Shown piece after piece: positions 1 through 38,900 of a stretch of DNA of 64,000 nt. Origin of the DNA: Mangifera indica (lineage: Eukaryota > Streptophyta > Magnoliopsida > Sapindales > Anacardiaceae). The stretch covers positions 14,880,001 through 14,944,000 of the forward strand of contig NC_058147.1 in assembly GCF_011075055.1 (NCBI RefSeq), given 5' to 3'. Both the position numbers and the translations under genes were made by a program. A model generated the notes under the pieces. The model made no database searches. It worked only from the letters and a program-made list of their open reading frames with translations, and was not told where the DNA came from. The first letter of the stretch is position 1, and each line of letters opens with the position of its first letter.

Positions 1-1293
1 ACATTTTAAGAGAATTCAATGGAACTGGAAAGATAATAATATAAAAGACACTGTCAATAGAAGCTAATTTTGGTTTATGTCTAAATTCACCTTGAATTTG
101 GACACTACCAACTTGATAAAGAGCTTATAGGTCACACACATATTAGGGCTGATTCAAACCCAGAGGCAAGGATTTTATGCTGATAATCCTGGTGCTTAAG
201 AAAAAGAAAAACTGTGAATAGGTTGGGTTTCCCCAATGGATTAAGAGAACTTGGTTTGATTATGTCTTGACAAAAATGCACAACCATGCATCTTAATATG
301 CCAATCGTGACTTGGCAGTGATGGTGTCGACCATACAAATGCATTGCACAAGTAGGTGACCTTTTGGCATCTTACACATAATATCAATAATATCCATAAA
401 CCATATAAGTGTTCTATTCTTGAAAAAATGTGTTGCTTTCAGATGTTTCCTCATGATCCTAAATGCCCATCCAAATATTTCGATACCTAGTACCTAATCT
501 CTGATGGTAGTGTCATCTCAAATGACTAATGTTAAATGATGTACATTGACATCCTGGATGTCTAGTGAAACTATGAGACATCCTTGATGTGTCTACCCAA
601 TACACTTTCTAGTCAAGTTTTAGGTAAGCATACCCTAGCACAAGAGGAGTAAAACCCTAGTTCTCTCTTAATATCACATAAGCATCCTAAATGCTAAGAT
701 ATCCAGCATCAATGCATGCACGAGCATCTTAGATACTAAGGCACCCTATACTAGTACATAATAATAAATTGGTACCAATGTCACCTAGATTGGCCCTAAT
801 GCTTTTACTATCACACTACACACAATTCGATGGCTAAAATAAGATAACACGTTATTTTCAATTATCAACTCAAAATCACTATGATTGAGGTTTATGTTAT
901 CCTTCATATAGTCAGATACCCCCAAAATACTCAATTAACTTATTCTGCCTTTGTTAGGGCCAAAATATTCTTATTACCCATATTCTCCTCCATTAGGGGT
1001 AAAATAGTCATTTTACATCTATGGATAACTCTATGCAAATTTCCCAAATACATATGGTTGTATACACTTCTTACACTGGCATGTGGTCTCAACCCTCACA
1101 CATGAGCATGTAACATTCTTTCACAGGCATCATACATGATCGTGTGTCTCATACCACAAAGGCATATGCATTCCCTTGCATCTACTCGCTTCTTCAATCT
1201 AAACATATGGAAAACTATTTATGCATAAAGATACATGAACATGTTTACTTCCCCACATGTTCGCAAATAAATCTTTTTACTCAATCATCATAG
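1..1293. other. Degenerate repeat-derived DNA, no gene seen
   Basis: No convincing coding region. Bases 118-200 resemble 13246-13320 inside the copia 3' LTR (shared stretch around 'ataggtcacaca'), so this is probably copia LTR debris. Bases 500-1260 look like antisense gypsy LTR material (repeated 'catcctggatgtc'-type motifs as in the LTRs near 2600 and 8500), but I cannot align them securely. Confidence 0.35.
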
Positions 1294-1789
1294 TGTTAGG
1301 GTAGTGCCCTAAAGCTAATTGTCACAATTAATATTTAAACTTTTTGAATTTATCAAAGCCTTCAAACTTATATTTTAACAAAAATATATAGTCATATCTA
1401 TTGAGGTCATCAGTAAATGTGACGAAGGTAGGCTTCCCTATATTTAGTATGCATTGTCATGGCCCACACACATCACTGTGAACGATCTCTAATAATTTTA
1501 TCTCCTTTTCACTTTGTCTAATGAAGGGTTCTTTGGCCATCTTACCCAATTGGCATGATTTACATTCATCATAAGATTAGAAGTCAAATAATTGCAAGAC
1601 TTTTGTTCAAAAAGTCTTAATATATGTTTTAGTTTTATGTGGCTTAGCTTAACATACCTTTGATATTTGGTATTCAGTTCATTTATTTTCAAATGTTTAT
1701 TATTTGGCACATTGAGAATTTTTTAATTAATGAGATAAATTACAATTTCAAATGTCAAATCAATTGGCTTTAGGGTATTTGCCCTAACA
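1294..1789 (-). pseudogene. Ty1/copia integrase fragment flanked by inverted LTR starts
   Basis: On the minus strand, about 1735-1340 encodes a GAG-pre-integrase/integrase remnant: an LNTKYQ...HI stretch, a degenerate zinc-binding region, and FVTFTDDLNR near 1398, the same integrase motif as at 9905-9940. Both ends carry the start of a copia LTR in opposite orientation: 'tgttagggtagtgcccta' on plus from 1294, and its inverted counterpart ending 'ccctaaca' at 1789. The gag and RT parts are missing. It is a rearranged remnant without coding capacity. Confidence 0.6.
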
Positions 1790-1805
1790 TGAGCCACATT
1801 AAAGG

Positions 1806-3044
1806 AAAGGTAGGCAAATTTCTATCCTTCTTTGTTATGTATCGCCATGTTCTATCAATATTGTGTTTGATCTGCTTTAGATTAGTTATATTATAGTGAT
1901 CTTCAAATAAATATGTATGATTGATATGCATGAATATGATTATAATGATGATAAAATACTAAGAATATGCATGAATTATTTATGTTCATTACTAGTTGTA
2001 TTGATCACTGGGTTTATGGATGTTTTGGAGTGGTTTTGGTAAACTAAATACATTTAGAGGAGTCTTAGATAAATTTTAGATATTTATGTGTAAAATCATT
2101 ATCAAAGATGACATGAATCTACAAGATATAGTGGCGGGGGATGCCCATCATAAGAAAGGTAAAATGGTCATCTTGGCGTGAGAAAGAAGATGGCATACAT
2201 ATGCGTGTGTGGGGTAGTTTAGTATATACACGGGGAGTTGGAAAAAGAACACATGTAATTAGGGTTAGAGAAGGATGGTCATCATTCCTCATCCAAGAAC
2301 GATCATCCCTCATCCCTCAGTATAGAACAATTATCCCCAGTGTGATAAGGTAAGTCATACCGAAGGCTTGGAAATAATGGTTTTACCTTCCGTACATTGG
2401 CAAAGGATTTAAGAGACATTTACGACATCCATTTTGATTAGGGTTAGGGAAAAAGGTGTCTTAAATGTTTGATTCAATGATATACTAGTTACAAAAGACG
2501 TCTAGGATGTCCAAATGGTTTACTTATGGGTGTAAGAGGCGTATGGGACATTCTACTAAAGAACAATATAAGTAATGAGTTGTTGATTATAAGAGACATC
2601 TCAAATGTCTACTTGGCAAGCATTTGGGACGCTGAATTACAAGGTTGTCTAGGATATTCCAAGAATGCTCAATAATTTATGTTTTTACTGGGTGTCTTGT
2701 CACTCATGTGTTTCTTGTTAATTGCATGTAAACTCAATAGTGAGGTAGGCAGGGAGGCTAGTGGATCAACTCACCGACGACATGACCATTATAACGAATG
2801 CCTTTTTTATTTATTTAATTCTATTTTTGGGGTTGCTCCATGCATATTATTATTTAGAAAAAAAAAAAGTGTTAGTTAGACATTCGACTTATTAGAACCA
2901 TTACTTTATTTTAATAAAGTTTATTGAGATATTTTATGAATTAGTTTTCTCGTAATAGATATGTAGGAAGATTTTTGTGGCATGCATGACACACCATCTC
3001 CAAAAATTACTCTTAAAGGTATGGTCTGGAGATGAGGTGTTACA
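1806..3044 (+). repeat. 5' LTR of gypsy element 1 (5'-truncated)
   Basis: It aligns by eye with 7940-9124 plus 9605-9636, for example 'atattgtgtttgatct' and 'aaataaatatgtatga'. It ends 'ggtgttaca' at 3044, just before the primer site. The start is missing, because the 3' LTR has a further 5' part from 7559. Confidence 0.8.
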
Positions 3045-3049
3045 TTTTT

Positions 3050-3066
3050 TAGTATCAAAGCATGAA
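3050..3066 (+). promoter_or_regulatory. Primer binding site of gypsy element 1
   Basis: 'TAGTATCAAAGC' follows the LTR end within a few bases. It is a diverged form of the TGGTATCAGAGC site, complementary to the 3' end of initiator tRNA-Met, used by most plant LTR elements. Confidence 0.6.
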
Positions 3067-3179
3067 ATGTGTAAATGGTTTTAAAAAGTTTAGGTACATA
3101 AGTATGATGTCTTACTTAATTTTGATCCCTTTGACAACTTGACTACTATGAGTATTATACCTACTTTAATGATTGTTGT

Positions 3180-4200
3180 TATTATGTTGAGCCTTAGGAT
3201 GGTTTCTTTGTAAAGAGAAAGGAAAAATAAAGAAGTCCAACCATTTGAATGTTATTCCAGAGGAAAGTCACTCTAAGACTATTGCACCTACGTTAACACT
3301 TACATTGGCCCTAATACTAGCACTAGCACTTGCTCCAACACTAGCCTTGACATTAAGAATGGTTGAGCTGTCTGAGATTAGAAATATTATGTAGAAAGTG
3401 CTAAGGGAGCACTGTGAGATTTTTGCTAGTATGGAAAATGCAACAAAGGCATTAGTAGTCTTGGGTGAACATCTAACTGCCCAATAACCTATTCAGCCTT
3501 TAGGATAATTGATGTTATATATGAAGGTTAGATACACCAAATCTATGGGTTAGTTAACAGATATCAACAACTAGATTTCATGAACCTAATTGAGGCTCTC
3601 AAATAGTTAGATGTTATAGAGGAGGTCATGACTATGTTCACTATGCTTAACTAAGAAAAGGTCAAGTATATTGCATATCTACTTAAAGGGGATGTTAAGG
3701 CTTAATGTAACTTGTATGTACAACTCGCTTTATAAAGAACATGACATAGGCTGACTTTAGAAGAGTTTTCAATAAGGAGTACCAATCGAAAGATAACATG
3801 AGGTCTCGTAATTGGGAGTTTTTTAGTATGAAATAAAGTAATACGATAGTCTAAGAGTTCTCAACCTGCTTTAACACTCTCATTATATATGTGCTCAATG
3901 TGACCGACATAGTCTGGGGTAAGATGAAAATGTTTGTTTAGAGGCTCTGAATTGATTTTGCTGAAAAAGTGATGGTAGGGGATCATACCCTTACCACTTA
4001 TTCTGAGACCCCATACAACACCCTGAAAGTAAAGATTATACTGGACAAGATGGAAAGAGAGAGAAAGGGGCTCCAGTATGTAGGAGGTATGGTCATTAAC
4101 ATCTAAAAGAATATAAAGCTAGATATAGGGTATGTTTCAAATGTAATCAATTGAGCCATTTCGTTAGAGAGTGTCCTAACAGAACTGACTAACATTGGTA
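3180..4200 (+). pseudogene. gag remnant of gypsy element 1
   Basis: Frame-shifted remains of a retrotransposon Gag. A CCHC zinc knuckle (CFKCNQLSHFVREC) is readable at about 4135-4175. Upstream stretches resemble the retrotransposon gag domain (VKYIAYLLKGDVKA near 3660). Stops interrupt every frame. Confidence 0.65.
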
Positions 4201-20900: not shown

Positions 20901-23900
20901 TTTTTCATTAAACATAGCCTTTGAATGTGATGATAAGCACATCCTAGTGGTAACAACAAATCTCTCTGAAACTCAAAGTGAACATATACCCACTATTAGA
21001 GGTTTGGGTACCTGTCAATTCAATGCTCAACAAGGTACAGAAATGCAGCTCTTTTCGAGTCCTCATCACCAAATAGAGTGTTAGAAGGAACAAAATTTGT
21101 TACATTAGTAGCTATATGAAATCCAACTTCAAAATTTCCATTAGGAAGAGACGTACGCCATAGTGTATCATAAATGTCCTTACCCCCATCCATAATAAAG
21201 ATGTGCAAATGCCACAAATCAAGCTTGAAAAAAATGGCCAAATCTTCATAACATTGACAATGGCAATGGTGGAAAGCATGTCAAAACTCGAGCAGAAAAT
21301 GGCCCTATATCTATGTCATTCAGTTCTTGGTAGTGATAAATGGCAAAGGAATCATGGCCATCTATTAGTTGGTCTTTAATAAATATGACATGTGAGATTT
21401 GAGGGCAGTTGAGAAACTAAAAGTAGTTTGACTCGGTGAGTTTGTGGCATTTAAATGATAAGTGGGTAACGAAGTATGGGATTGAATGGAAGTTTTGTAG
21501 GTTGAATGGAGAATTAGATGTTGGATCTGGGTGAGAGTTTGTATTTGGGTTTGGGTTTATATTGTTATTAAAAGATATGGGTTGGGAATTAATGTTTGGG
21601 CTTAGGTTATCACAAAAGGGCATGTCATGGGTTGGGGTGAAACAATTAGGTTTAGGGACAGGACTAATGATTAGGCGTGGTTTTGATTAAAATGCAATCG
21701 GGCTTGGTTGATATTGATTAGAGTTGGTATGATAAATTGGGCTTGGGCTTGGATTATAAGTATCTGGGTTGATGATGTATTTTGAAGTGGTGAGTCAGGT
21801 TGGGTTATAAGACTTAGATCTCTAATGACAAAAGCTCATGATAGTCAAGCAAATGAACAATTTCTGGTAATAAGGCTTCCCCGAAAACAACTAAATTACC
21901 CTAGAATCTATCGAATCACCCTTTTGGACCACCATGGACTTTGTAATTTCTTTGGAATTTATCAATTCGTGGTCAGAATTGTCAGAATCTATTGATTTCA
22001 CCTTCTAGTCATTGGAATCTATTGCTTTTCACTAGAAACTCTCATCTCAACAAAATCAGTTCCACTCTTCTCCACTAGATCGACTTCTCTCCTCGCTTCT
22101 CATTGCTCCCAATCAAAATGATATCGTCGTCTAATTTATCCTCGTCCACCAGTAACATCACCAACCATTTGAATTTATGATCATGATTGGATTTGAGTTT
22201 GTCTTCATAATGGAGACAAATTCCTTTCTTTGACATACATCAAGCTTCCAATTTTTTCAATCGTTGAAACCACAATCAACTCCCATTCTCATCCAACATG
22301 AAATTGATTTGTCCCACACTTGTACTTATTTGATACCAATGTTTAAAACCTGTAAATCCAAATACTACAATCTAGTAACATCACACACAAACAAGCAATT
22401 CCATCTAGAAATAGGATAGGAAATCAATATTATTAATTGGAAACCAACCTCTACAACAGTGGCCTCAAGGTGATCAAGCAACAAAGCAGAACATGAATAG
22501 AAATGAAATTTTGGTGACTAGAGATGTCAGATCATTCCCTAAAGCCATGGCCTCCCTTTTTACTATTTTCTTGATTCTTCCCTTTTTTCAATTGCCTTAT
22601 TATCCTGAATATATAGTGGCTGGTTTGTGCCCAATTACATCCATTTCCTCAAATTCTCCACATGTTGTTTCCTTCTTAGACATGCCTAATGGTGCCACGT
22701 CATCTTGAGGCAAATATCCCTCTTGCTTACATGCTTCTTCCATTGCATTGAAGGTCTTAATGGGCTAAAATAAAGGATTTCATTGAGTTAATCAAAACAT
22801 TCATGGATGATATAAGGGAACACATAATGAAAAAGAGAAGTAGCAAAGGTATGGAACTGGAAGGATTGAAACCAACATGAGAAGTTTCCATCCAAAATTC
22901 GATGCTCGCCCCAGAACAGACACTAGTTTTTAGAGACAAGTGGCAATGGAAGCCAAGCAAGTCGAAATGAATTTCAGACCAAGAAGTTAGAGCTTTTGAT
23001 TTTCAATGGTAATGGTTCTCTTGGTTTTGTATTCTAAATAAAGAGATATTTCTCTGTAAACCTAATTCAAACGTTTGTCTGGAAGGCGCAACATTGACAT
23101 GGTTTCAATCGGTGGAATCTAGAGCTTCCATTTCCAATTGGGATGAACTTAAATCGGCTATGTTGCTTTAATTTTGATCAATGCAACTGGGAGCCTTATT
23201 GAGCAACTCATGGCAATCCGAATATGGGGAATTGTCAGCGAATATCAAAAGAGGTTCGAGAAGAAAGTGACAACTTCACGTGACAACAATGCAATGATAA
23301 GGACTCTAACCATTTTTGACAAGAAATATGGGAAATTTAAGAATGGCATATGGCAATAAAGGATTAAGTGAGAAAAAAAACATAATTGAAAGAGACATTG
23401 TATAAAGAGAACAAAGATTCAAGAAGAAAAGGAGAGTTTTTGATAGTTAACAATGACGAGGCCACCAGAACCTCGAATGGTTGGATTTATGTTGTTTTCC
23501 TATTGAGTTTTATTCCTCATGTAAGTAAGTTTATAGAAATGCAATTGTCTAGGTTGTTAACTTGCTTGATCCATATATAAACCTAGATTATCAAAGTTTA
23601 ATTGTTGGTTAGTTCTTGTTAGTTTTCTATTGTGTTGTGTGAGCAAATTTTTGCAGGTTAGCCCGATTGTTACACAGTTTTGTGATCATAGAAGGAGCTT
23701 AACTTTGTTGCTGCAGTGTTTTGGTTAATTTCCAGAAAAGGCATGTATTAGAATATAATGTTCAATCAAACAAAACCACAAACCACATTATAATATTTCA
23801 CATAGTTTTAAATTTTCCCTTTATTACTCAAGCCAGACCTAAGGGGTCTGCCTTCAACAAAGAGCAGTTAGAACAGCTATAGCTTCTCATTGCAAATGCC

Positions 23901-26900
23901 CAACTCAGCTCTACTACCACCACACCTCAGTGTTCAATTGTTCAAAAAGGGGTTATACATGGATTATTGATTCTAATGTGTTCGATCTCATGACTAGTTG
24001 TCATGAATTGTTTAATACTTATAGTCCTTGCTTTGGGAGTTTTAAAATAAGAATTATTGATGGATCCTTATCTTGGGTTGCTAGAAAAGGAATTATTAAA
24101 CTTCAGAATTTGACACTAAATTCTATTTTACATGTCCCAAAACTCACTGGTGATTTAGTGTCAATTAATAAGTTAACAAAGGATTTAAACTGTGCGGCTA
24201 GGTTCTCTCCCATGTGTTTTGAGTTTTAGGATTTACACTCAGCAAAGATGATTAGCAACGCTAAAGAAAGTGAAGGCTTGTACTATTTGTTGGACAATAC
24301 TCAGAAGAATAAAAAAGTTCTATATTTGAAGAGTGAAGATTTTCTTGCTCTCAATAAAATCATGTTATGGCACAATCATCTTGGTCATCCTAGTCTGCCT
24401 TATCTCAAAATTTTGTTTCCCTCTTTATTTCGTAATAAAAATATTCGATCAATTCCTTGTGAAAAACGTCAAATTGCCAAACATACTCATTCTAGTTATC
24501 TCGAACAACCATATAAAAGTTCAAAACCTTTTTCAATGATTCACAATGATATTTGGGGTCCATCAAGAGAAAAGAATATAGCTAGGGCTCAATGGTTTGT
24601 AATATTTATTAATGATCATACCCATGTCTATTGGGTGTTTTTAATGAAAGAAAAGTCTGATATTCAATTCATAATTCCCCAATTTTATAAAATGGTTGAA
24701 ACATAGTTCCGTAGTCAAATTCAAGTTCTGCGCATTGATAATGGTCGAGAATATTTTTCCTCTATTCTCGAAAATTTTTTTAAAGAAAAAACATTGTCCA
24801 CCAAAGTTCTTGTGTGCACACCCCTCAACAAAATGAGATCGCTGAAAGAAAAAATCGTCATTTATTAGGAATAGCCCTTGCTCTTCTTTTTATGCACAAT
24901 CTTCCAAAAACTTTCTGGGGGGAAGCTATTCTTACTAGTGCACATCTTATAAATCGTCTTCCTAGTCATGTCTTAGGTTTCCAAACACCCATAAATCTCA
25001 TGTCAATATTTCCGCATAGTCATTTGCTAAATTCTCTATCTCCTCGAATATTGAGTGCACTGTTTTTGTCCATAATACTGAACCAGCCCATACCAAAACT
25101 GATTGTAAAGTTATTAAGTGTGTCTTCATAGGCTATTCTTACAAATGTTTCAATCCTACACTCAAAAAGACTTTCATTTCCCTTGATGTAACATTTTTTG
25201 AACATATTCCATACTTTCCAAAGCTTATTATTCAGGGGGCGATTGTACAAGAAAATAGCCTTTGAGATCCTTCATCCTCATTCACCTCATTACTTGTTGC
25301 AACTAGCCTTCCTTCTACAGAAAACTTTCCCACTGATACTATTCCTAATGTTATGCCAGACTCTCAAGGTAATTTGGAAATAGGAAAATCATCACTTGAT
25401 CTAATAAATCCCACAAAGCTATGAGTTTATTCACAACGACAAAAACCCCAAATAGTACATGAAGTCACTTCTCAAGAGCATGGTCAATCATCTAACCCAG
25501 GTCAAGATCTTGAACTTATAACTAAGAATGATGATTTGGTAGAAAATACATCCGAACTTGATCCCAAGGAGTAGATTCTATCCAATCCTAACCTAGAGAC
25601 TAGTGGGTTGGACTTACCTATAGCATAAGGAAAAGAGTTCAAAGTTATACCCAACATCCTTTAGCCAATTATATGACATTTAATCATCTCTCTGGAGCCT
25701 TTCTGTTCATGACTGAAAAGTTAGAAGCTGAAAAAGTTCCTAGTAGCATTCAAGAAGCACTTGGCAATCCAAAAAAGAGGGTTGTTGTCCTTGAAGAAAT
25801 GAGGGCATTGAAACTTAATGGAACTTGGGAAAATGTTGATTTGCCAAAGGGGAAGAAGACTCTAGGATGCAAATTGATCAGTACAAAGCTCGTTTGGTGG
25901 CCAAGGGATTTACCCAAACTTTCGGAATAGACTATACCAAAACCTTTGCTCCGATGACTAAGTTGAACACTATTCAAATTATCTTATCAATTGCAGCAAA
26001 CCTTGACTGGCCACTTCATCAACTAGATGCTAAGAACGCATTTCTTAATGGAGATATTGAGGAAGAAGTCTACATGAACCCACCGCTAGGTTTTGAACAA
26101 GATGCTAATCATAAAGTGTGCAGATTGAAGAAATCTCCATATGGACTTAAGCAATCTCCCTGTGTGTGGTTTGATAGATTCTCAAAATTTCTAAAGAAGC
26201 ATGCATATGTTCAAGGCCAAGCTAATCATACTTTATTTATCAAAATCTCACCATCGGGTAAAAGAACTATCTTAATTGTATATGTAGATGACATTATTTT
26301 GACAGGTGATGACTTTGGTGAAATGGAGAAACTCAGGGAAGTTCTTGGTAAGGAATTTGAAATCAAGGATCTCGGACAACTTAAATATTTTCTTGGAATA
26401 GAGGTGGCTAGGAGCAAAGATGGTATATTTGTTTCTCAAAGAGAATATACAATTGATTTGTTAAAAGAAACAGGAATGCTCGGTTGTAGACCTGCATCAT
26501 CTAATATAAATCCTACTTTGAAGTTTGGAAAAGAAGAAAATGGGACACCAGTGGACAAGGGGAGTTATCAGCGTTTATTTGGACGACTAATCTATCTCTC
26601 TTACACCAAACCTGATCTTGCATTTGCAATCAATGTTGTCAATCAGTTTATGCATTCTCCTTAACAGTCACATCTAAATGCAATTAATTAAATTCTAACA
26701 TATTTGAAGACCTGTCCAGGTAAGAGTCTTTTTTAGAAAAAAATGTTGAAAGAGGAGTAGAAGTGTTCACAGATGTAGATTGGGCTAGGTCAATTAATGA
26801 TTGTTGATCTACTTCAGCCTACTACACTAAAGTCTGGGGTAATTTAGTGACATGGAGAAGTGAAAAAACAATCCGTTGTCGCTCGTAGTAGCGCAAAGGC

Positions 26901-29900
26901 AGAATTCAGAGCCTTTGCTCAAGGAGTTTGTTAGCTGATTTGGCTTAAAATGGCGTTAAATGAAATTGACGTGAACTAGGAGAAACCATTGAAGGTTTAC
27001 TGCAATAATAAGGTTGCAATTAATATAGCTCACAATCCGGTGCATCATGATAGAACAAAACATGTTAAGGTTGATAAACATTTTATCAAGGAAAAAATTT
27101 ACTTTGGAGAAGTTTGTATGACCTATATTCCAACGAAACAACAAGTGGCAAATATCTTGACCAAAGGACTACACAAATTAGATTTCGAAGCATTAGTTGA
27201 CAAGCTGGAAATGATCAATATCTATTCACCGGCTTAAGGGTAAGCGTTGACTTATTCCCTTTTCATTGTAATTTGATTTATTTTGTTATTTAGATTTGAT
27301 TCCTGATTTTCTAGAATATTACAGCTAAGAGATTGAGAATGATTTGTTTTTATTTTTCCTTAGTAGTAAATCTATCAATTTCCGTATTTAGTGCTAAAAA
27401 TCTGAGATTTAATTTGGTTGAATAACCCTATTTATATAAGGGTTTCTTTTTTGTTTATTTTTAAAAAAATATAAGAGAGACGTATTCCTCTTCCTCTCCT
27501 AAATTTCTTTATGATCCTATGACTTAAAAGTGGTTTGTTTCAGCGGACGTGACCTTTTTAGAGTCTAAGTCATGTTTTTAAAGTTGCCAATGATAACCAT
27601 CCTATTCCTCTTCCTACACTAGTGTCTACATCCATTCCACCTTCCAAACCCTTGAAAGTTTTCAATCGGCAATAACCTTTGCAAACTCCTAGCACTCTAA
27701 AGCCATCTCCTACTCCATTGTATTTAGCCAGTGATTCTTTTGAATTGCCCATTGCTCTTCACAAAGGTAAACGTTCTTGTACTCAGCATCCCATTGCAAA
27801 TGTTGTCTCCTTGATCACTTTGGTCCTTCTATTCGTTCGTTTGCTTTGTCTCTGTCATCTATATCTATTCCTAGGAATTATCATGAAGCTATGCAAAGTC
27901 TTGATTAGCTGAAGGCAATGAAGGAGGAGATGTCAACACTTCTTACTCGAAATACATGGGACTTGGTACCATTACCTGAGGTAATTCATCCAGTTGCGAG
28001 CAAATGGGTTTTTATTGTGAAGGATCACCCTAATGGTTCTATTGAAAGGTATAAATCACTGTTGGTTGCTAAAGGATATACTCAAGACCCTGGGTATTGA
28101 CTTCTTTGAAACATTCTATCTTGTTGCTTGGCTTAACTCTATTGGTATGCTTGCATCTGTAGTAGTCAATAAAGATTCTCCCATGTCAACTAGATGTCAA
28201 GAATGTGTTTCTTTATGGGGATCTAACTGAAGAGGTTTATATGGAGCAACCGCTTGGATTTGTCGCTCAGGGGTAGACTCATCTTGTATGTAAACTGAAA
28301 AAAGTCATTTATGGTTTGAAACAGAGTCTGAGAGCTTGGTTTGACCAATTCACTTAGGTAGTATTTGCTGCAAGATTTAAACGAAGTCAAGATAATCATT
28401 CAGTCTTTATGCAACATAGCTCATTTGGTATTGTAGTGTTGATTGTATATGTAAATGATATACTATTATCAAGTAGTGATATGATTGGCATTGAGGAAAC
28501 CAAGCGATACTTATAACAACAATTGTTACCAAAAACCTTGAAAATTTAAGGTACTTTCTCAGTATTGAAGTTGCTCATAGTAAACGAGGTGTGGTACTCT
28601 CTCAAAGAAAGTATGCCACGGATCTTCCATAAGAAACAGATCTACTAGGGGCAAAAGCAATAAATGTCCCTATGGAACCTAATCTAGATTTATGAAAAGA
28701 TGATGAAGACTTTGAACTAGTACTCAGTTCAAAAGACTTGTTGGCAAGCTTATTTATCTTATAATGATCAGACCAAACATTGTACATGTTGTAGGGCTGG
28801 TTAGTCAATTTATGGAAAAACCTAAGAAGTGTCATTAGGAAGCTGCTTGTCATATTCTAAGATATGTTAAAAAGTCACCAGGAAAAGAGTTATGCTTTGA
28901 AAAGAATAAACATCTTGATTTAGTTGGTTTTTCATATGCTAATTATGCTGGTGACAAGGTGAACAAAAATTTACATCAAATTATTCTACTTTTGTGGAAA
29001 GTAATCTAGTAACTTGGAGTAAAAAGCTGACAATTCTGTCTAGATCTAGTGTTGAAGCTGAATATCATGCCATGGCTCAAACCACATGTGAACTAATTGG
29101 TTGAAAACACTTTTAGAAGACTTTGGTATTATATATATGGCTCCTATTCCTATGCATTGTGATAATCAAACAACAATTCACATTGCCAATAATCTTGTCT
29201 TCCATGAACAAACAAAGCATATTGAATTTGATTGTCACTTTATGAGGAATGTTGTCACTAGTAAGAAGATTTGTACTCCATTTACACCTTCAAAGGACCA
29301 TATTGCTGATTTGTTCACCAAAACCCTTAAGAAGGATGACTTCACCCAACCGAATAACAAGTTTCACATGATGGACATCTATGCTCCAACTTGAGAGAAA
29401 GTCTTAATAACATTGTTAATAATATATTTTAGGAATATAATTATTTATATATTATTAATAATTAGTTGTTCATTACTATAATTTAGAGTTGCACTATTAG
29501 AGCCTAGTTTATGTAGTATTAAGACACTTATCCTCAATCCAATGATAGTTTTCTTTATAAATAGGGTCTTTAGGTTTCAAAAAAGATGGAGGTAAAAAAT
29601 ATTCTAGGGTTTTGCAATTTGGGAAGCTAACCTTAGCTGATATATGGAGGTCTCCAGCACCTTAAATGGTGGGGAAGTAAGAGGTCTCGGACTCCTCGAA
29701 TAGTCTAGAATGAGAGATCCCAAATTCCTCAAATTATTTGACTTATCCTTGTAACCTTTTGACTAATGAAATAGTTTTATTTTATTGTGCATTTGTGTTT
29801 TTACTTTTTGTTTTAGATGAATTAGGGGCTGAGTTCCTAACAAAATGATATCAAAGCAGTTCGATCTGGGTTTTTTATGAGAGAAATGATCAGAGATGGA

Positions 29901-32900
29901 TGAGGAATTCAAAAAGTCACCGGTTAAAGATGGATTATCGCTAAAAGGTTCTGTCGAAACGAGATCAATAGGAGATGATAATGGTGAAAGGCAAATTGAC
30001 AATAGGAAAACAAATCGGCACAACAATAATGACCGAAGATCTAAAAAGTCATCAGAGTCGACACCGATAAATGGCTAAAAGGAAAAGAAAGGAAAAACAA
30101 AAGGAGAAGAAAAGGAAGTAGCAAAAACAGTGAAGAAGAAAATTTGCAGAAGAATAAGAGAAATGACAAAAAGAAAAGAAGAAAGAAAAAATTTTAAAAG
30201 AGAAAGTTGCATGCGACAACTATAACAAATAACTACAGAAAACTGTGCATAATTGAAAAGTTACAAAAAGAAAGAAATAGAAAATTGTGTCGGTTAATGG
30301 GAAGAAAGTGGAAAAGTGGTAAAAAAGGGGACAGCCGGCTTAAAAAAAGAAGTTTAAAAAAATAGTGGCTAGAAAAAAAAAGAGAAAGCAGTGGCAAGAG
30401 GCAACACAAAATAGTTAAGAAAGTAAAAAACAGTGAATAGAGATAGAATCAGCCAAGAAAAAAAAAGTAGTTTAAAAATATATATATCCAATTTTAAAAA
30501 TAAAAATTATATAAAAAAATAACCAGCTTAAGGACAAGATGGTTTTGAAGGGAAAAGCAATGTTAGGGTTGGGACACTTGTCTTCAATCCAATGGTGGTT
30601 TTGATTATAAATAGGGTCTTTAAGTTTCAAAAGAGAGGGAGGAAAAAAATATTCTAAGGTTTTGTAATTTGAGCAACAAACCTTGGCTGATACATGGAGG
30701 TCTCCAGTGCCTCAAATGACCGAAAAATGGGAGATCCCGGACTACATGAATTATCTAAAATGAAAGGCTCTGAACTCCTCAAATTGTTTGGTTTATCCTT
30801 GTAATCTTTTTATTAATAAAATAGTTTTATTTTATTGTGCATTTCGTGCTTTTATTTTCTATTTTAGATGAATTAGGGGCTAAGTTCCTCACCTTTGCAA
30901 ACCATGGTGGTATGTTCGGATCCTAAGTGCAAAATATAGGATTTGGATTCCACATTAGAAAATATGGGTAACTAGTGTGAGGTTTATATAGCTTTAGACT
31001 CTCTCATCTCAATAGCTAATTTTTTAAATGTAATTCTCTTAAGGTTAATATCAGTTTACATCCTATATTATTAGATTCCTACTTTAGGAGTCTTGTACAT
31101 GTATATATATCAACACATATAAATGAAAAATATCAGATTTTGTTTTTCTAAATTTCAAGATTCCCAGAATAAATAAAATTAAGACTCTTACATTAACTAA
31201 GATTCTTAAAGCAAATAAAACTTTTAAATAACTAGAAAACTAGACTCTGAATGAATTCTCTTGCTCTCTCCACAAGAATTTCCGCCTAATCAAGCCTCAT
31301 GATATTTTGTCAATTAGACATGCCACCAAGCATGCATGTTGGATGGTTGCCACATCGTTTTCCATGCCATACTTGGTTGTCACATCATCGCTTTTGCCTT
31401 TGGCTTGTGTTTTCAACGTTTTCAATGTTTGTCACCCTACAATACTCTTGCCATAGTCCTCCATTATTGGATCACACATTATTGGTAATCTATGGACCAC
31501 ATCAATATTGTTCTCCTAATCCTTACAAGTTTTCCATAATTTTGATCAAGCATTTCATTCATCAAAAAACAATGCACATCTAAATATAGAGTTGTTAACA
31601 TACTAAATATGGCAAAAGTATAGTGATCCCACCTCTTACTCTTTAATTACTTAATGAAATCACTTGGAAATGTGCGAAAAATGAAACATCATAACAATGA
31701 TAGGCATTGTAATTCCGTGGGAGCTAAAATCAGGAAGATAAATACAAATACTTGACTAGTAGTATACAATACATGTCCAACTTAACCTAGTAACATCTAA
31801 TAGTATAATACAATTCAAAGCATTAAAGAAAAAGAACCATTTGATTAAAACCAATTAACAATAGTTTTTTGCTTGTCAATAAATTCATCCCATTACCCAA
31901 AAAAATGTATGGTAAATAAAAAACTTTAAAAAAAAATAGAGCTTACCTCAAGAGACTCGGAATTATAAAAGAAATGCCATGTGCATGCACAAAATGCTCC
32001 ACCAAGTAGGGGTACCTAAACAATAATAGAGAGGAAGAAAAGGGCTTATGAAGAAATCATATCATTTAGATTATTGATTAAAAGAAAAAAAAGTATGCTC
32101 TATAGAAAGTTGTAATCTAAATGGGTCAATACTTATTGTGTAAATAAATCAAAACCTAAAGCCAATCTAAAAGGCTAATGCTCAAAAAATATGAAATATT
32201 CAAAGACAGTACCATCGTTATTAAAGGAAGAAGGAAACTAGAATCAATAGCCATTTGATGAGGGACCAAGGCCTTCAAATCCCAGAGGGAAGCAAAACAA
32301 GCGCATGAAGAGGAACCAAAACACGAAGAGTACACAACGAAACATAAATGACTGAAAAAAGACATAAGGTGATGCCAATTAGCATGTTTTGTTAGAACTA
32401 TAAACGAGGTAGATTAGTTTTTTTCTAAAAGTAGTTATTCTAATCATTGTAAAGATTAGAGGTTGATTTTTGTTAGAACTCATATATATATTTTCCACAG
32501 GAAAAGAGAAAATAAAAAAAGCTGTGACCCAAAGGCAAAATTGGAAGGCTGTCACCTTATTGCAAATCCAACCACTAAGAATATGAAACGTGGCAGAGCA
32601 GGAGAGAATGAAATGGCTGTGGAAAGAGTTGAAAAAGGGAGCAGGTGTGGAAAAAAGGGAGGAAAAAAATCCAGAAGGAGGAAAGGAAGAGGAGAGACCA
32701 GCCTCTCGAATGCTGGAACAGGGGCCTGAGCTGGAGTTCCTTCAGTTCAGTGCATAGTTTCTTTAGTAATTGTATTTTCTGATTTTATATCTTGTTATTT
32801 GCACTCGTTGTAAGCAAGCAGAACACTGGGATATTGAGGCTGTTATTTTGTTTATCATCCAGAATACATTTGAAGCAATTAGTTACCTACTGTTATTATC

Positions 32901-35900
32901 AAATCTTTACAGCCATAACTGTTACATTGTCTTATTTCCGATAAAGTCTGATTGCAGTAGCATTTGAACACCCGCGTCGAAGCCCGTTCGAGTTACCTGA
33001 GCGATAAACGACAGCAGGTACCTAACAATTGGTATCAGAGTGACGATTCTGAGGATGGAAAAAATCGACTTTATCAAAGACGGTGGACGTTGGTGGATTG
33101 TCCGGCGACTAACCCAGTGGGAAATTCGAGAACTGAGGGCTAACAGAGTTTGTCCTCGTTGTGATGGCAAAGAGGAGCCGAACCATGACTGTAAACGCAA
33201 GTCATGGGCTGTTCTGGTGGTGGAAGAGGATGATCCAGATGATGAAGGCATTCTAATTGTGTTTGATAGAGAAACCAAAAAAAGGGAAGCAGAAATAAAG
33301 ATTGAAAATTCTGACGATAAAAAGAGTAGATCGATTATGTCTGGTGCCCAAATAGGAAAATCTGTTGAAGAATCAACAAAATTCGGTGAGAAATACGCAG
33401 AAGTGGAGGCGCCGCAGTTTATTATAGGAAGAGATGGGGAGTTGCAGGAAAACGGATGGTGGAAAGAGACAAGGGAAAAAATGGAAGGAAATAACCCTAC
33501 CCATTTGCTACCCAATCTAAAGACCCGACCCGATCCAAAAATCAGACCCAGCCAGCATAAACCAAGTATTGACTCAACACCCAACCCAATTTTTCATTAA
33601 CTCTTCCACTAACCCAACCAAAATATATGACCCAGGCCCAAATAACCCTTTAACATTTACCCACCCCTTTTCCAATCACTCATCAACAAGGCCAACACCT
33701 ATTTCATATTTAAAAAAACAGATTCTAGCCCAAAATCTTATTTTACAAAAACCTCAATCAACAACCCTACTGGAACTGCTTTTGTATAAGTATTTCACCA
33801 GTTTGACTCGCTTGCAACTCATGGAATCACTCATTTCACAAACACTCTTTCGAAACTTTGCGATCATGCACAAGCTCACCAAGCGTTCGGCTTCAACTAT
33901 TCTGTGCCACGGAAGTGCGCGCTACCTTCGAAGTGCAACTGTCGCACCTATTAGCGGCAACAGTCAATCCGGGGACTCGATATTAGAGAGTGATACCAAA
34001 CTCAGATGGTATTCAGTGTTAACAGCTAGGCAATCGGGTACTGTCTGTTATTCGACTGAATTAAATTGGAAAAAGAATGGTTTGTTTTTGGGCAGCTGGT
34101 ATGAGTCAACTGCAACAGCATCCGACACATCATCCTCACCTCCACCTGAGAAATACGAATATCAAGCGGAGGTTAGTCGACTCATGGACCTTATTGTTAA
34201 TAGCTTGTACAGTAACAAAGAAGTGTTCCTGCGTGAGCTTATTAGCAATGCAAGTGATGCTGTGGACAAGCTGCGGTTTCTTTCTATTACTGAGCCTGAG
34301 CTTTTGAAAGAAGCTGTTGATCTTGACATTCGTATCCAAACTGATACAGATAATGGGCATTACCGACCGACAGATGACAGGTGTGATAGCTTTTTATCTT
34401 TTCTCAAAGAAAATAGAGTGAACATTGTTAAAATTGAAATTCATAGGACCAGCGAAAATTATTCTGATAGCTATAGTGATGGAAAATTTGTCAAAGTTGA
34501 GACTGCAAATGAAGTGTTCACAAACTCTGAGTCTCCCGAGCCTGAAAAGGTAAAGGAAATAGAGGTAAGCGTCGTTGAAGAAGTTGACGAAGAGAAAAAG
34601 GCCAAATCAAAGAAGAAGAAAATTAAGGGGCTACCTCATGAAGGGAATGGGGCTCACGAAGGAAATGGAGCCCATAAAGGAAATGGGACAGATGATGCAT
34701 TGCCACTACCTCCACCAATAATTCCACCAGATTTCACTCCAACAAAGGTGGAACCTGAACCATTTAAGAAAAAGGTGGTGAGGCTTCCAATATCGAAGCG
34801 TGGCCTTGGATCTAAAGGGCAAAAGAGTGTTGTGCTTACAAATCACTTCAGAGTTAATGTTACCAATGTTAATGGTCTCTTCTTCCATTATAGTGTTTCC
34901 CTCTCATATGAGGATGGTCGTCCTGTTGATGGCAAGGGTAATGGAAGACGAGTAATTGACAGAGTGCAAGAGACCTATGATAATGAGTTAGCTGGAGAGG
35001 ACTTTGCATACAATGGGGAGAAGAGTTTATTTACTGTTGGTCCCCTTCCCCGCAATAAGCTAGAGTTTACTGTTATGCTTGAGGAAATTTCATCCAGCAG
35101 AAACAATGGAAATGGAAGTCCTGATGGGTGCGAGAGCCCTAGTGCGAATGATCGAAAGAGAGTACGTCGCCCTTATCGCTCCAAAACTTACAAAGTGGAG
35201 ATCAGCTTTGCTGCAAAAATCCCAATGCAATCTATTGCTAATGCATTACGTGGTCAAGAGTCTGAGAACTCCCAAGAAGCTTTGAGGATTCTGGATATAA
35301 TACTACGACAGCATGCAGCTAAACATGGTTGCCTTCCTATACGACAATCATTCTTTCACAATGATCCGAAAAATTTTGCTGAAGTGGAAGGCCGTGTTCC
35401 GCCCGCCCCAAGGTTAAAAATAGGAAATGGTGAGGATTTCTTTCTTCGAAATGGTTGGTGGAATTTCAATAATAAGAAATTAGTGGAGCCGACAAAGATG
35501 AAACGATGGATTGTTGCAAACTTTTCTGCGCGCTGTGATATTCGTAGCCTTGTTCGTGATCTGAAAAAATGTGGCGATATGAAAGGCTTGAAGGAAGACT
35601 TGCTAGAGGAGCAGCTTGAAGGTGAATCAGAATACAAGTATTCCTCCCATAGTGATCTTGAAGTGCTTAATAAGTGGAAAGGGTTGCCGGATTGCAAATG
35701 GACTTGGGAATCATGCGACAACCTTCAATATCCTTTTCCCCAATCACACCTTGAGGACAAGGTGTCTCTCGATGGGCGGAGAAATGTTAGAACTCATATA
35801 TATATTTTCCACAGGAAAAGAGAAAATAAAAAAAGCTGTGACCCAAAGGCAAAATTGGAAGGCTGTCACCTTATTGCAAATCCAACCACTAAGAATATGA

Positions 35901-38900
35901 AACGTGGCAGAGCAGGAGAGAATGAAATGGCTGTGGAAAGAGTTGAAAAAGGGAGCAGGTGTGGAAAAAAGGGAGGAAAAAAATCCAGAAGGAGGAAAGG
36001 AAGAGGAGAGACCAGCCTCTCGAATGCTGGAACAGGGGCCTGAGCTGGAGTTCCTTCAGTTCAGTGCATAGTTTCTTTAGTAATTGTATTTTCTGATTTT
36101 ATATCTTGTTATTTGCACTCGTTGTAAGCAAGCAGAACACTGGGATATTGAGGCTGTTATTTTGTTTATCATCCAGAATACATTTGAAGCAATTAGTTAC
36201 CTACTGTTATTATCAAATCTTTACAGCCATAACTGTTACATTGTCTTATTTCCGATAAAGTCTGATTGCAGTAGCATTTGAACACCCGCGTCGAAGCCCG
36301 TTCGAGTTACCTGAGCGATAAACGACAGCAGGTACCTAACAATTTTATTTAGGAACATGTTTATAAGTTTAACTAAAGTCAAAGTCCTAATTGAGTTAGT
36401 TTTCTAGTTTATCAAAGCGTCCTAATGTATTTCAAAGTTCTAATGAGGTTGGAAAGATGTTTGGAAGTTGTGTTACAGAGTTCAAGTCTTGATTAAAGTA
36501 AGTTTCCCTAACTAAAAAAAAAAATTAAAGTTAGTTTCCCTTAAGGATAAGTTTCCTAGAGTTTTTGACCTAGGGAAATTAGAGTTTTCTATTCCTAGTA
36601 GGGTTAGTTTCCTTTAATAGTTTCCATGTATTAAGGAATTAGTTTCCTTTAATAGATATCCTTGTATGTTTTAGGAATTAGTTTTCTATTTTAACTACAT
36701 GAATTAGAGGCCTATATAAAGGGGTTTGAATCTTTGTAATTGTAATTAAATTCAATCCATCATCAACAAAATTCATATCTGAGTTTTTTTTTTTTTAAGA
36801 ATTGTTTTGCGATTAATGCATTGAATTCTTGTATATCCTTGTGTCTTATCGAATGATATTAACACTCTTAGTTTTGTAAACAAGATCACAGCCCAATTCA
36901 ACATTTGTCCTGCATCAACAATCCAAATACTTCCAAGAAGACCACAATACGAAGGGGAAATAAGATTTTAAGTAGTCAAAATCATCCTATTATGTTTTGT
37001 CTATTAGTTGCTTTAGTCCATTTTCTCATTGAGGTTGGAAGAAGTTTCACTATCCTTATGACCAGGGCAAGTCTACTTAGAGTTGTGTTACATGGTGTGT
37101 GTAATAAGCCAAATTTGCACAGGTCACTACATTTCACAATTTATTGACTTAATTATAAATAGTAAACCGTTAGAAGCCCAATTCTTATTCAACTAAAACA
37201 AAAAATTAAAACACAAAAATATAATAAACTAAAACTATTTCATCAATCAAAAAATTACAAATATAAACCAAATAATTTGAAGAATTTAGAACCTCCCATT
37301 CCAGACAGTTTGAAGAATCTGGGATCTCTTATTTTCTGACCATTCGAGACGCCAAAGACCTCCCTAAATCAGCCAAGGATGGTTGTCCAATTATAAAACC
37401 TAATATTTTTTCTTCCTCCCCTCTTTTGAAACCTTAAAAACATATTTGTAACGGAGACTTACCGTTAGATTGAAGACAAGTGTCTCAATCCTAATATTTC
37501 TCTTCCCTTCAAAACCACAATGTCCTCAAAGTGGGTAATTTTTTTTTATCATATATATTTTTAAATGTTTTTTCCTTTTTAGCCAATTGTGCCCCACTCA
37601 TTCCCTTGCTTTTTTTTTTTTTTATAATTTTGCCACATGTCCCCTACTTTACAATTCTGCCATCTGTCCACAGTTGTTTCCAGCGCATTGTTTTGCATTT
37701 ACTTTTTTTTTTCCTCACTGTTTATAGTTGTCCCTTCTCTTTTCTTTAATCTTTTTTTCTCTTTCCTTTCTTCTCTACATTTTCTCTCTTCTATCTTCTG
37801 TAATTTTTTTTCTTTCTTCACACTTTTGCCCGTGTTCCCTTTTTTTCTCCTTCTTCTTCTTGTGTTTTCACTTTCTTCTTCTTTTTATTGTTTAGCACTT
37901 CTTCAACATGTACCCACTGACTCATTTCTCTTGGTGATGATTCATCTTCAAGTCAACTTCCTCCATAAACATTTTTCGACGACTCTTCACTTTTTTGGTC
38001 ATCATCTGTATTCCCCATTAAATCAAATGCTCTGATACTATTTTGTTAAGAACTCAGCTCTTATTCAACTAAAACAGAAAATTAAAACACAAAAACATAA
38101 TAAACTAAAACTATTTTATTAATCAAAATATTACAAAGATAAACCGAACAATTCGAAGAGTTTAAAACCTCCCATTCTAGACAATTCGAAGAGTCCGAGA
38201 CCTCCTATTTTTCAGTCATTTAAGGCCTCAGAAACCTCCCAAAATTAGCTAAGGATAGCTGCCCAATTATAAAACCTAATATTTTTTCTTGTTCCCCTTT
38301 TTGAAACCTAAAGAGCGTATTCATAGTAGAGACTTACCCTTAGATTGAGGACAAGTGTTCCAATCCTAACATAAACCTATCCCTTAAAATCATATTAAGA
38401 GAAAACTAAACAAATCATAGTTTATTACAAATGCTTATAATTTAGCGAAATAATTGAAATAAAATATTTCATAGGTCTATAAAATTTTGAATAAACACAA
38501 CTTGATTAAAACATGCTTACCACTCATACTTGATTAATAATGTATCCAAAATTTAGATTGCTCATAAGGAATGTAATGAAACTAGCAGAGATGGAGAAGC
38601 GAAACTCACCATTCCCCACGAAAGACCCTTCCAAGCTTTATAACCAAATTTCTCTCCATATTGCCATACTAAAGCCATAGCAGTAATCCTTTTGAACAGA
38701 AAATTTAGAATCAATTCGCTTTCTTTATTTATTTTTGTCTAGTTTGGGTTAAAATAGTTGAAGAACTTAAAAGTCAAACCCCAAAATATATTGAACTTGA
38801 AATCGTGAATATGTTAATTATTTATACAAAGAGAAATTCATAAAATAGTACAAGTAAACAAAATTATAATAATGAATCTATATAGCTGAATTGTGGTTAG

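Follow-up and report, generated by a model that had tools for sequence, protein, structure and literature searches.

A pol-less LTR retrotransposon of mango with pieces of HSP90-6, IQM3 and AGO4, from a family with changing host-gene cargo

We analyzed a 64,000-nucleotide stretch of the mango (Mangifera indica) genome (contig NC_058147.1, positions 14,880,001 to 14,944,000; hereafter, the window), in which a long terminal repeat (LTR) retrotransposon carries pieces of the host genes HSP90-6, IQM3 and AGO4 and shows no pol. It is highly probable, in our judgment, that this element is a pol-less copy of a family and that its chain of host-gene pieces was built over several rounds of reverse transcription, with template switching by the reverse transcriptase (RT) of a helper. 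The features of the element are listed in Table 1; loci and contigs of the genome are designated by L and C numbers.

Structure and host-gene content of the element

The two LTRs are 557 bp each, have no differences and end in TG and CA, and this pair together with the ATTTT target duplication on both sides defines an LTR retrotransposon. The motif TGGTATCAGAG follows the 5′ LTR and GGGCGGAGAAA precedes the 3′ LTR, which we take to be the primer-binding site and the purine tract, respectively. Using a plant substitution rate assumed to be 1.3 × 10-8 per site per year, 0 differences in 557 bp would place the insertion within about 0.2 million years. No inverted repeat of 30 bp or more was found within 32000-37000, unlike the terminal inverted repeats of a Pack-type DNA transposon.

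The gag remnant, with its CPRC..HDC zinc knuckle, and the cargo occupy separate frames, both here and in L024. In the second frame the order is HSP90-6, IQM3, linker, AGO4 N, AGO4 Mid and a chromodomain-like tail. A Pfam search of both frames at E 0.1 gave no protease, RT, RNase H or integrase match, that is, none of the enzymes of an autonomous Ty3/Gypsy element, and ArgoN was matched in the second frame at E = 5.8 × 10-31. A PDB search of the same frame gave HSP90 and argonaute matches. The match of the tail to Pfam Chromo was sub-threshold (E = 0.078, 13.4 bits vs a cut-off of 25.1), and its layout, judged by eye, is similar to that of the class B tails described below.

An earlier note on this DNA, made from the letters alone, had described the matching LTRs with the perfect ATTTT duplication, the primer site and purine tract, the zinc knuckle and a coding region that is neither RT nor integrase, and all of these were found again; its chromodomain tail is present as a chromodomain-like sequence below the Pfam cut-off. 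It had also described HSP90-6-type and AGO4-type coding sequence. Both were found (by a second measure, the HSP90-6 piece matched at 90% across 84% of the region used as query), but the IQM3 piece between them had been missed, and the two-donor reading is therefore rejected. The lysine-rich linker had looked, by eye, like that of cytosolic HSP90; a PDB search gave 0 matches at E 10, and this candidate was dropped. With host coding pieces lying within intact LTRs, the element is a case of the transduction known from maize Bs1.

Table 1. Features of the element, in window coordinates
Feature	Coordinates	Strand	Remarks
Target-site duplication ATTTT, left copy	32466..32470	none	
5′ LTR	32471..33027	+	557 bp, same as 3′ LTR; mosaic: left ~190 bp class A, remainder class B
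Primer-binding site TGGTATCAGAG	33030..33040	+	presumably initiator Met tRNA type
ORF1 (open reading frame 1): gag remnant, CPRC..HDC zinc knuckle	33040..33600	+	no Pfam match; region nearest C10 element (94.5%)
Long open frame, 824 amino acids from TTG	33569..36043	+	spans host-gene pieces and chromodomain tail, enters 3′ LTR
HSP90-6 piece, Met1 to ~residue 163	33866..34354	+	88% to mango HSP90-6 over 170 aligned residues
IQM3 piece, from ~residue 292; approximate borders	34355..34555	+	also in AGO4-free sisters
Lysine-rich linker; approximate borders	34556..34636	+	contiguous with IQM3 in L046 too
AGO4 N-terminal piece, four donor exons joined	34637..35380	+	first three 96-98% to AGO4 gene at C2:13.22M
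AGO4 Mid piece, without PAZ	35372..35587	+	joined to N piece across AATTTTGCT
Chromodomain-like tail	35583..35773	+	junction MKG followed by LKEDLLEEQ
Purine-rich tract GGGCGGAGAAA	35774..35784	+	precedes 3′ LTR
3′ LTR	35785..36341	+	
Target-site duplication ATTTT, right copy	36342..36346	none	

A family of loci sharing AGO4 and differing in cargo

The search covered 391 Mb in 241 contigs, and the number of AGO4 loci is a lower bound, as it is based on 60 matches, with 40 of 92 candidates scored. At least 15 loci bear AGO4 pieces. The cargo is HSP90-6, IQM3 and AGO4 at four of them (window, L024, L025, L026), KARI and AGO4 at another four (L009, L010, L011, L035), IQM3, a CBS protein and AGO4 at three (L031, L032, L033), a probable SPL protein and AGO4 at two (L036, L040), and a DUF7815 protein and AGO4 at one (L037); L027 bears AGO4 and is left unassigned among these five sets. 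Pfam backs KARI (L009, L035), CBS (L033), DUF7815 (L037) and the PAZ and ArgoN domains. SPL1/SPL12-like is our presumed label for L036 and L040, and Pfam gave no match on that part of them. PAZ is missing in the window element, the KARI copies and L024-L027.

Counting the copies with the same internal junctions, a check proposed in the earlier note, showed that the AGO4-chromodomain junction, or one that is one residue off, is shared by 11 of the 15 loci (window, L009-L011, L024, L027, L031-L033, L035, L036). At L037 and L040 the DNA alignment crosses this junction with the frame disturbed, and at L025 and L026 the junction is deleted. A single frame stays open across the cargo and AGO4 at nine of the 15 (window, L009-L011, L024-L026, L035, L040); in L009-L011 it spans 1,075 codons between stops. 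In L031-L033, L036 and L037 the frames are interrupted, either within the cargo or on the way from it to AGO4. The check for full LTR pairs covered the window element and L009-L011, all four of which have the pair and target duplications (flanks of L009-L011 by eye), and most other loci were judged from fetched pieces; both ends of L040 bear LTR pieces that match. Searching the genome with the window LTR gave no full-length match besides its own pair among the 40 scored of 99 candidates. A locus on contig C4 encodes the Mangifera indica protein LOC123213687 (829/829 residues), that is, an annotated mango protein is the product of such an element.

Three observations concern single loci. L031 and L032 (C18) have the same frames 30 kb apart, possibly by segmental duplication. 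At 4731-5782 of L016 (C5:797600-807500), an LTR of the KARI family is succeeded first by 300 bp of KARI in inverted orientation and then by an incomplete LTR, an arrangement that might reflect self-integration of a complementary DNA. Downstream of the KARI element of L035, at 2978-3403, lies a frame that by eye resembles a double-stranded RNA-binding protein, which suggests that the element inserted near such a gene.

Origin of the AGO4 piece from spliced mRNA

The donor AGO4 gene is located at C2:13217861-13220869, where the first three exons match at 96-98% and later pieces at 89-94%. In the N piece of the window element four of its exons are joined, and introns of 559 bp and two of ~80 bp are gone. 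L033 and L040 have five and six AGO4 exon pieces, respectively, joined without introns (each 94.8-100%), and in several copies the intron losses match the splice sites with a precision of a few bases. Exons joined in this way indicate that the piece was derived from spliced mRNA.

This result bears on the alternative that the host sequences came in as DNA, through read-through of a neighbouring gene or through ectopic recombination or gene conversion at element loci. Modular pieces and the shared deletions described below are also possible by DNA-level exchange between copies, but the absence of the AGO4 introns is against such an entry, and so are the LTR pairs of four chimeras, which differ by 0, 1, 0 and 0, as reverse transcription yields. 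For AGO4 this alternative is largely refuted, and for the cargo as a whole we regard it as unlikely.

A second AGO4 gene gave nearly equal exon matches at C9:8343523-8346106 and C63:173427-176010, possibly one locus and its alternative haplotype.

Order of captures

L045 and L046 have a related gag region (86-88%), IQM3 from Met1, the same linker and a chromodomain-like tail, and AGO4 is absent. The stretch of the window that matches their IQM3-linker block extends to the start of AGO4. IQM3 begins at Met1 in the C10 element as well. Because IQM3 and linker are found in AGO4-free elements, a single joint capture of IQM3 and AGO4 is rejected, and the order would be IQM3, followed by AGO4, with HSP90-6 added in a single branch; the differing cargo sets together with these sisters point to serial capture. 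Some differences from the AGO4 gene recur among the copies, which favours one capture of AGO4 rather than two. A PPR-like stretch noticed by eye between linker and chromodomain in L045 and L046 was not counted as a host gene, because Pfam gave nothing above cut-off for four open pieces of it (of five given).

Reassortment of LTRs, gag and cargo between copies

The window LTR is a mosaic with a breakpoint near position 190. In 40-bp blocks, positions 1-160 are 95-97% identical to the LTRs of the KARI copies L009 and L010 (K4 and K7) and at most 53% to class B, and positions 201-557 match class B at 72-97% and class A at no more than 62%. The class B copies resemble gag-pol chromoviruses whose frames are broken; in one of them, L019, Pfam matches exceed the cut-off for gag, RT, RNase H and the zinc domain of integrase. 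K4 and K7 themselves are 99.8% identical inside (6 mismatches in 601-3500), while their LTRs have ~90 differences each, or ~20% through most of the length. Likewise, synonymous divergence (dS) between the window element and K4 is 0.06 in AGO4 plus chromodomain and 0.99 in the gag knuckle, and the window gag region is nearest to that of the C10 element. The AGO4 deletion at AAAGTGGA is common to copies with HSP90 cargo (L024, L026) and KARI cargo (L035). On comparison of these copies, cargo, AGO4 deletions and LTR parts are seen to reassort, and the mosaics fit exchange between co-packaged RNAs.

At the junctions, 2-9 nucleotides (nts) are shared. The internal deletions of AGO4 share 9 nts in the window element, 8 in the L024 type and 6 in the L040 type; for the last, the right side was assessed on the copy in the window. 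At the linker-AGO4 junction, 5 nts (CATGA) are common to L046 and the AGO4 gene, and L045 reads differently. At the HSP90-IQM3 junction, compared on the donor side at the protein level, the window element equals L046 from AGATAATGGGC onward, where the HSP90-6 protein has DNG. Such short identities would fit template switching between co-packaged RNAs.

Proposed mechanism

We propose that minus-strand DNA was initiated on one RNA, the source of the right, class B portion of the LTR, and was then transferred to the 3′ end of an RNA of the KARI/AGO4 type, from which the left, class A portion, the chromodomain and AGO4 Mid would derive. Synthesis would then have continued along an HSP90/IQM3-type element RNA. 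The enzymes would come from a gag-pol chromovirus, and the original captures would be copy-choice jumps onto host mRNAs.

Several points weigh against this mechanism. The core-integrase match of the class B copy L019 is just under its cut-off, the frames of the class B copies are broken, and the class B copies seen are only 79-85% identical overall to the right part of the window LTR, so the actual LTR partner is not among them and may be non-autonomous. The junction peptide is not seen at four of the 15 loci, and the two AGO4 deletions of K4 share just 3 and 2 exact nts. Furthermore, intron loss is shown for AGO4, the one donor compared as gene DNA; HSP90-6 and IQM3 were matched as proteins.

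The earlier note had proposed that the element moved in trans using a chromovirus and captured host mRNAs. The lack of pol and the recombination with a chromovirus LTR type agree with the former, the enzyme supply being presumed, and the latter is borne out for AGO4. The pieces were not taken up together by this copy, as IQM3 and the linker occur in the AGO4-free sisters, AGO4 at 15 loci and HSP90-6 at four of these.

Selection on the AGO4 cargo

The ratio of nonsynonymous to synonymous divergence (dN/dS) between copies is 0.91 for AGO4 plus chromodomain (204 codons), and for the HSP90-IQM3-AGO4 cargo the bootstrap medians are 0.98, 1.17 and 1.55, with 95% intervals that span 0.45 to 4.8. In the gag knuckle, dN/dS is 0.11, which marks it as conserved. 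The cargo is thus most likely passenger sequence that evolves roughly neutrally, as judged from codon comparison, and a function against silencing is unsupported. The earlier note had found it striking that AGO4 sequence is carried by an element that AGO4 would silence; the sequence is there, but these ratios give no sign of a function.

The opposite explanation is that the element retains its chimeric proteins or AGO4-derived RNA because they are of use to it, for example by reducing AGO4 or by serving as a decoy in RNA-directed DNA methylation. The open frame at nine of the 15 loci agrees with it, as do 298 exact 24-mers common to the window and the AGO4 gene, and the absence of stops among 84 distinct differences from that gene (7 copies), where 0.5-0.9 per copy and ~3 in total were estimated. 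However, these stretches lay within frames picked as open, so that the zero count is partly built in, the frames of five loci are broken, PAZ is missing in many copies, and a common 3′ end is expected from shared descent. Together with the dN/dS values, this makes helpful cargo very unlikely. We would hold out equally little hope for the wider idea of a capture machine, in which the AGO4 module, as RNA or gag-linked fragment, would blunt RNA-directed DNA methylation while the upstream slot is refilled by successive host mRNAs. An assembly artefact, or a host retrogene flanked by chance by two unrelated LTRs, can be set aside, because LTR pairs with target duplications occur at four loci and the structure is repeated at 15, and nothing in favour of it was found.

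The HSP90-type AGO4-N parts of the window (34637-35191), L024 and L026 have 11, 16 and 17 base differences with an estimated dS of 0, perhaps owing to mutation bias.

Relation to known gene-capturing elements

Bs1 of maize is the textbook LTR element carrying several host genes, and it is the nearest known case. As in the window element, segments from three host genes lie within an LTR element, together with a chimeric gene (PMC13317346). Its donors are an ATPase, a xylan endohydrolase and a beta-1,3-glucanase (PMC13317346), and those in mango differ. Unlike Bs1, as described in the part of that source considered, the mango elements form a family with varied cargo sets behind common AGO4 and chromodomain pieces and with chimeric LTRs. 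In maize, 425 intact LTR elements with captured gene fragments were reported, and, in the portion of that survey covered here, no element was identified that combined fragments of two or more standard nuclear genes (PMC2774510), whereas the mango element has three. Another report gives 672 and 1,343 captured genes and, as far as covered, contains no serial cargo replacement in one family (PMC3726574). The pairwise recombinants of ONSEN in Arabidopsis (PMC5668417), and BARE-2 alongside (PMC13317346), resemble the mango family in recombination of co-packaged element RNAs and chimeric LTRs; as the sections considered present them, these join element to element, whereas the mango family also reassorts host-gene modules.

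Among the literature matches listed, no title concerned an AGO4-carrying LTR element or a gene-capturing one in mango, and a family that swaps cargo, deletions and LTR parts around a captured AGO4 appears to be new. Since one genome holds apparent intermediates (IQM3 without AGO4, AGO4 with and without PAZ, five cargo sets and LTRs mid-exchange), the order in which plant LTR elements capture mRNAs, and the sequence rules that such captures follow, become readable from sequence.

Surroundings of the element in the window

Inverted-repeat arms at 29507-30892 and 37184-38376, ~75-76% alike, flank the element, which therefore lies inside an older repeat structure. At 23843-26664, broken frames look like a Ty1-copia integrase and reverse transcriptase.

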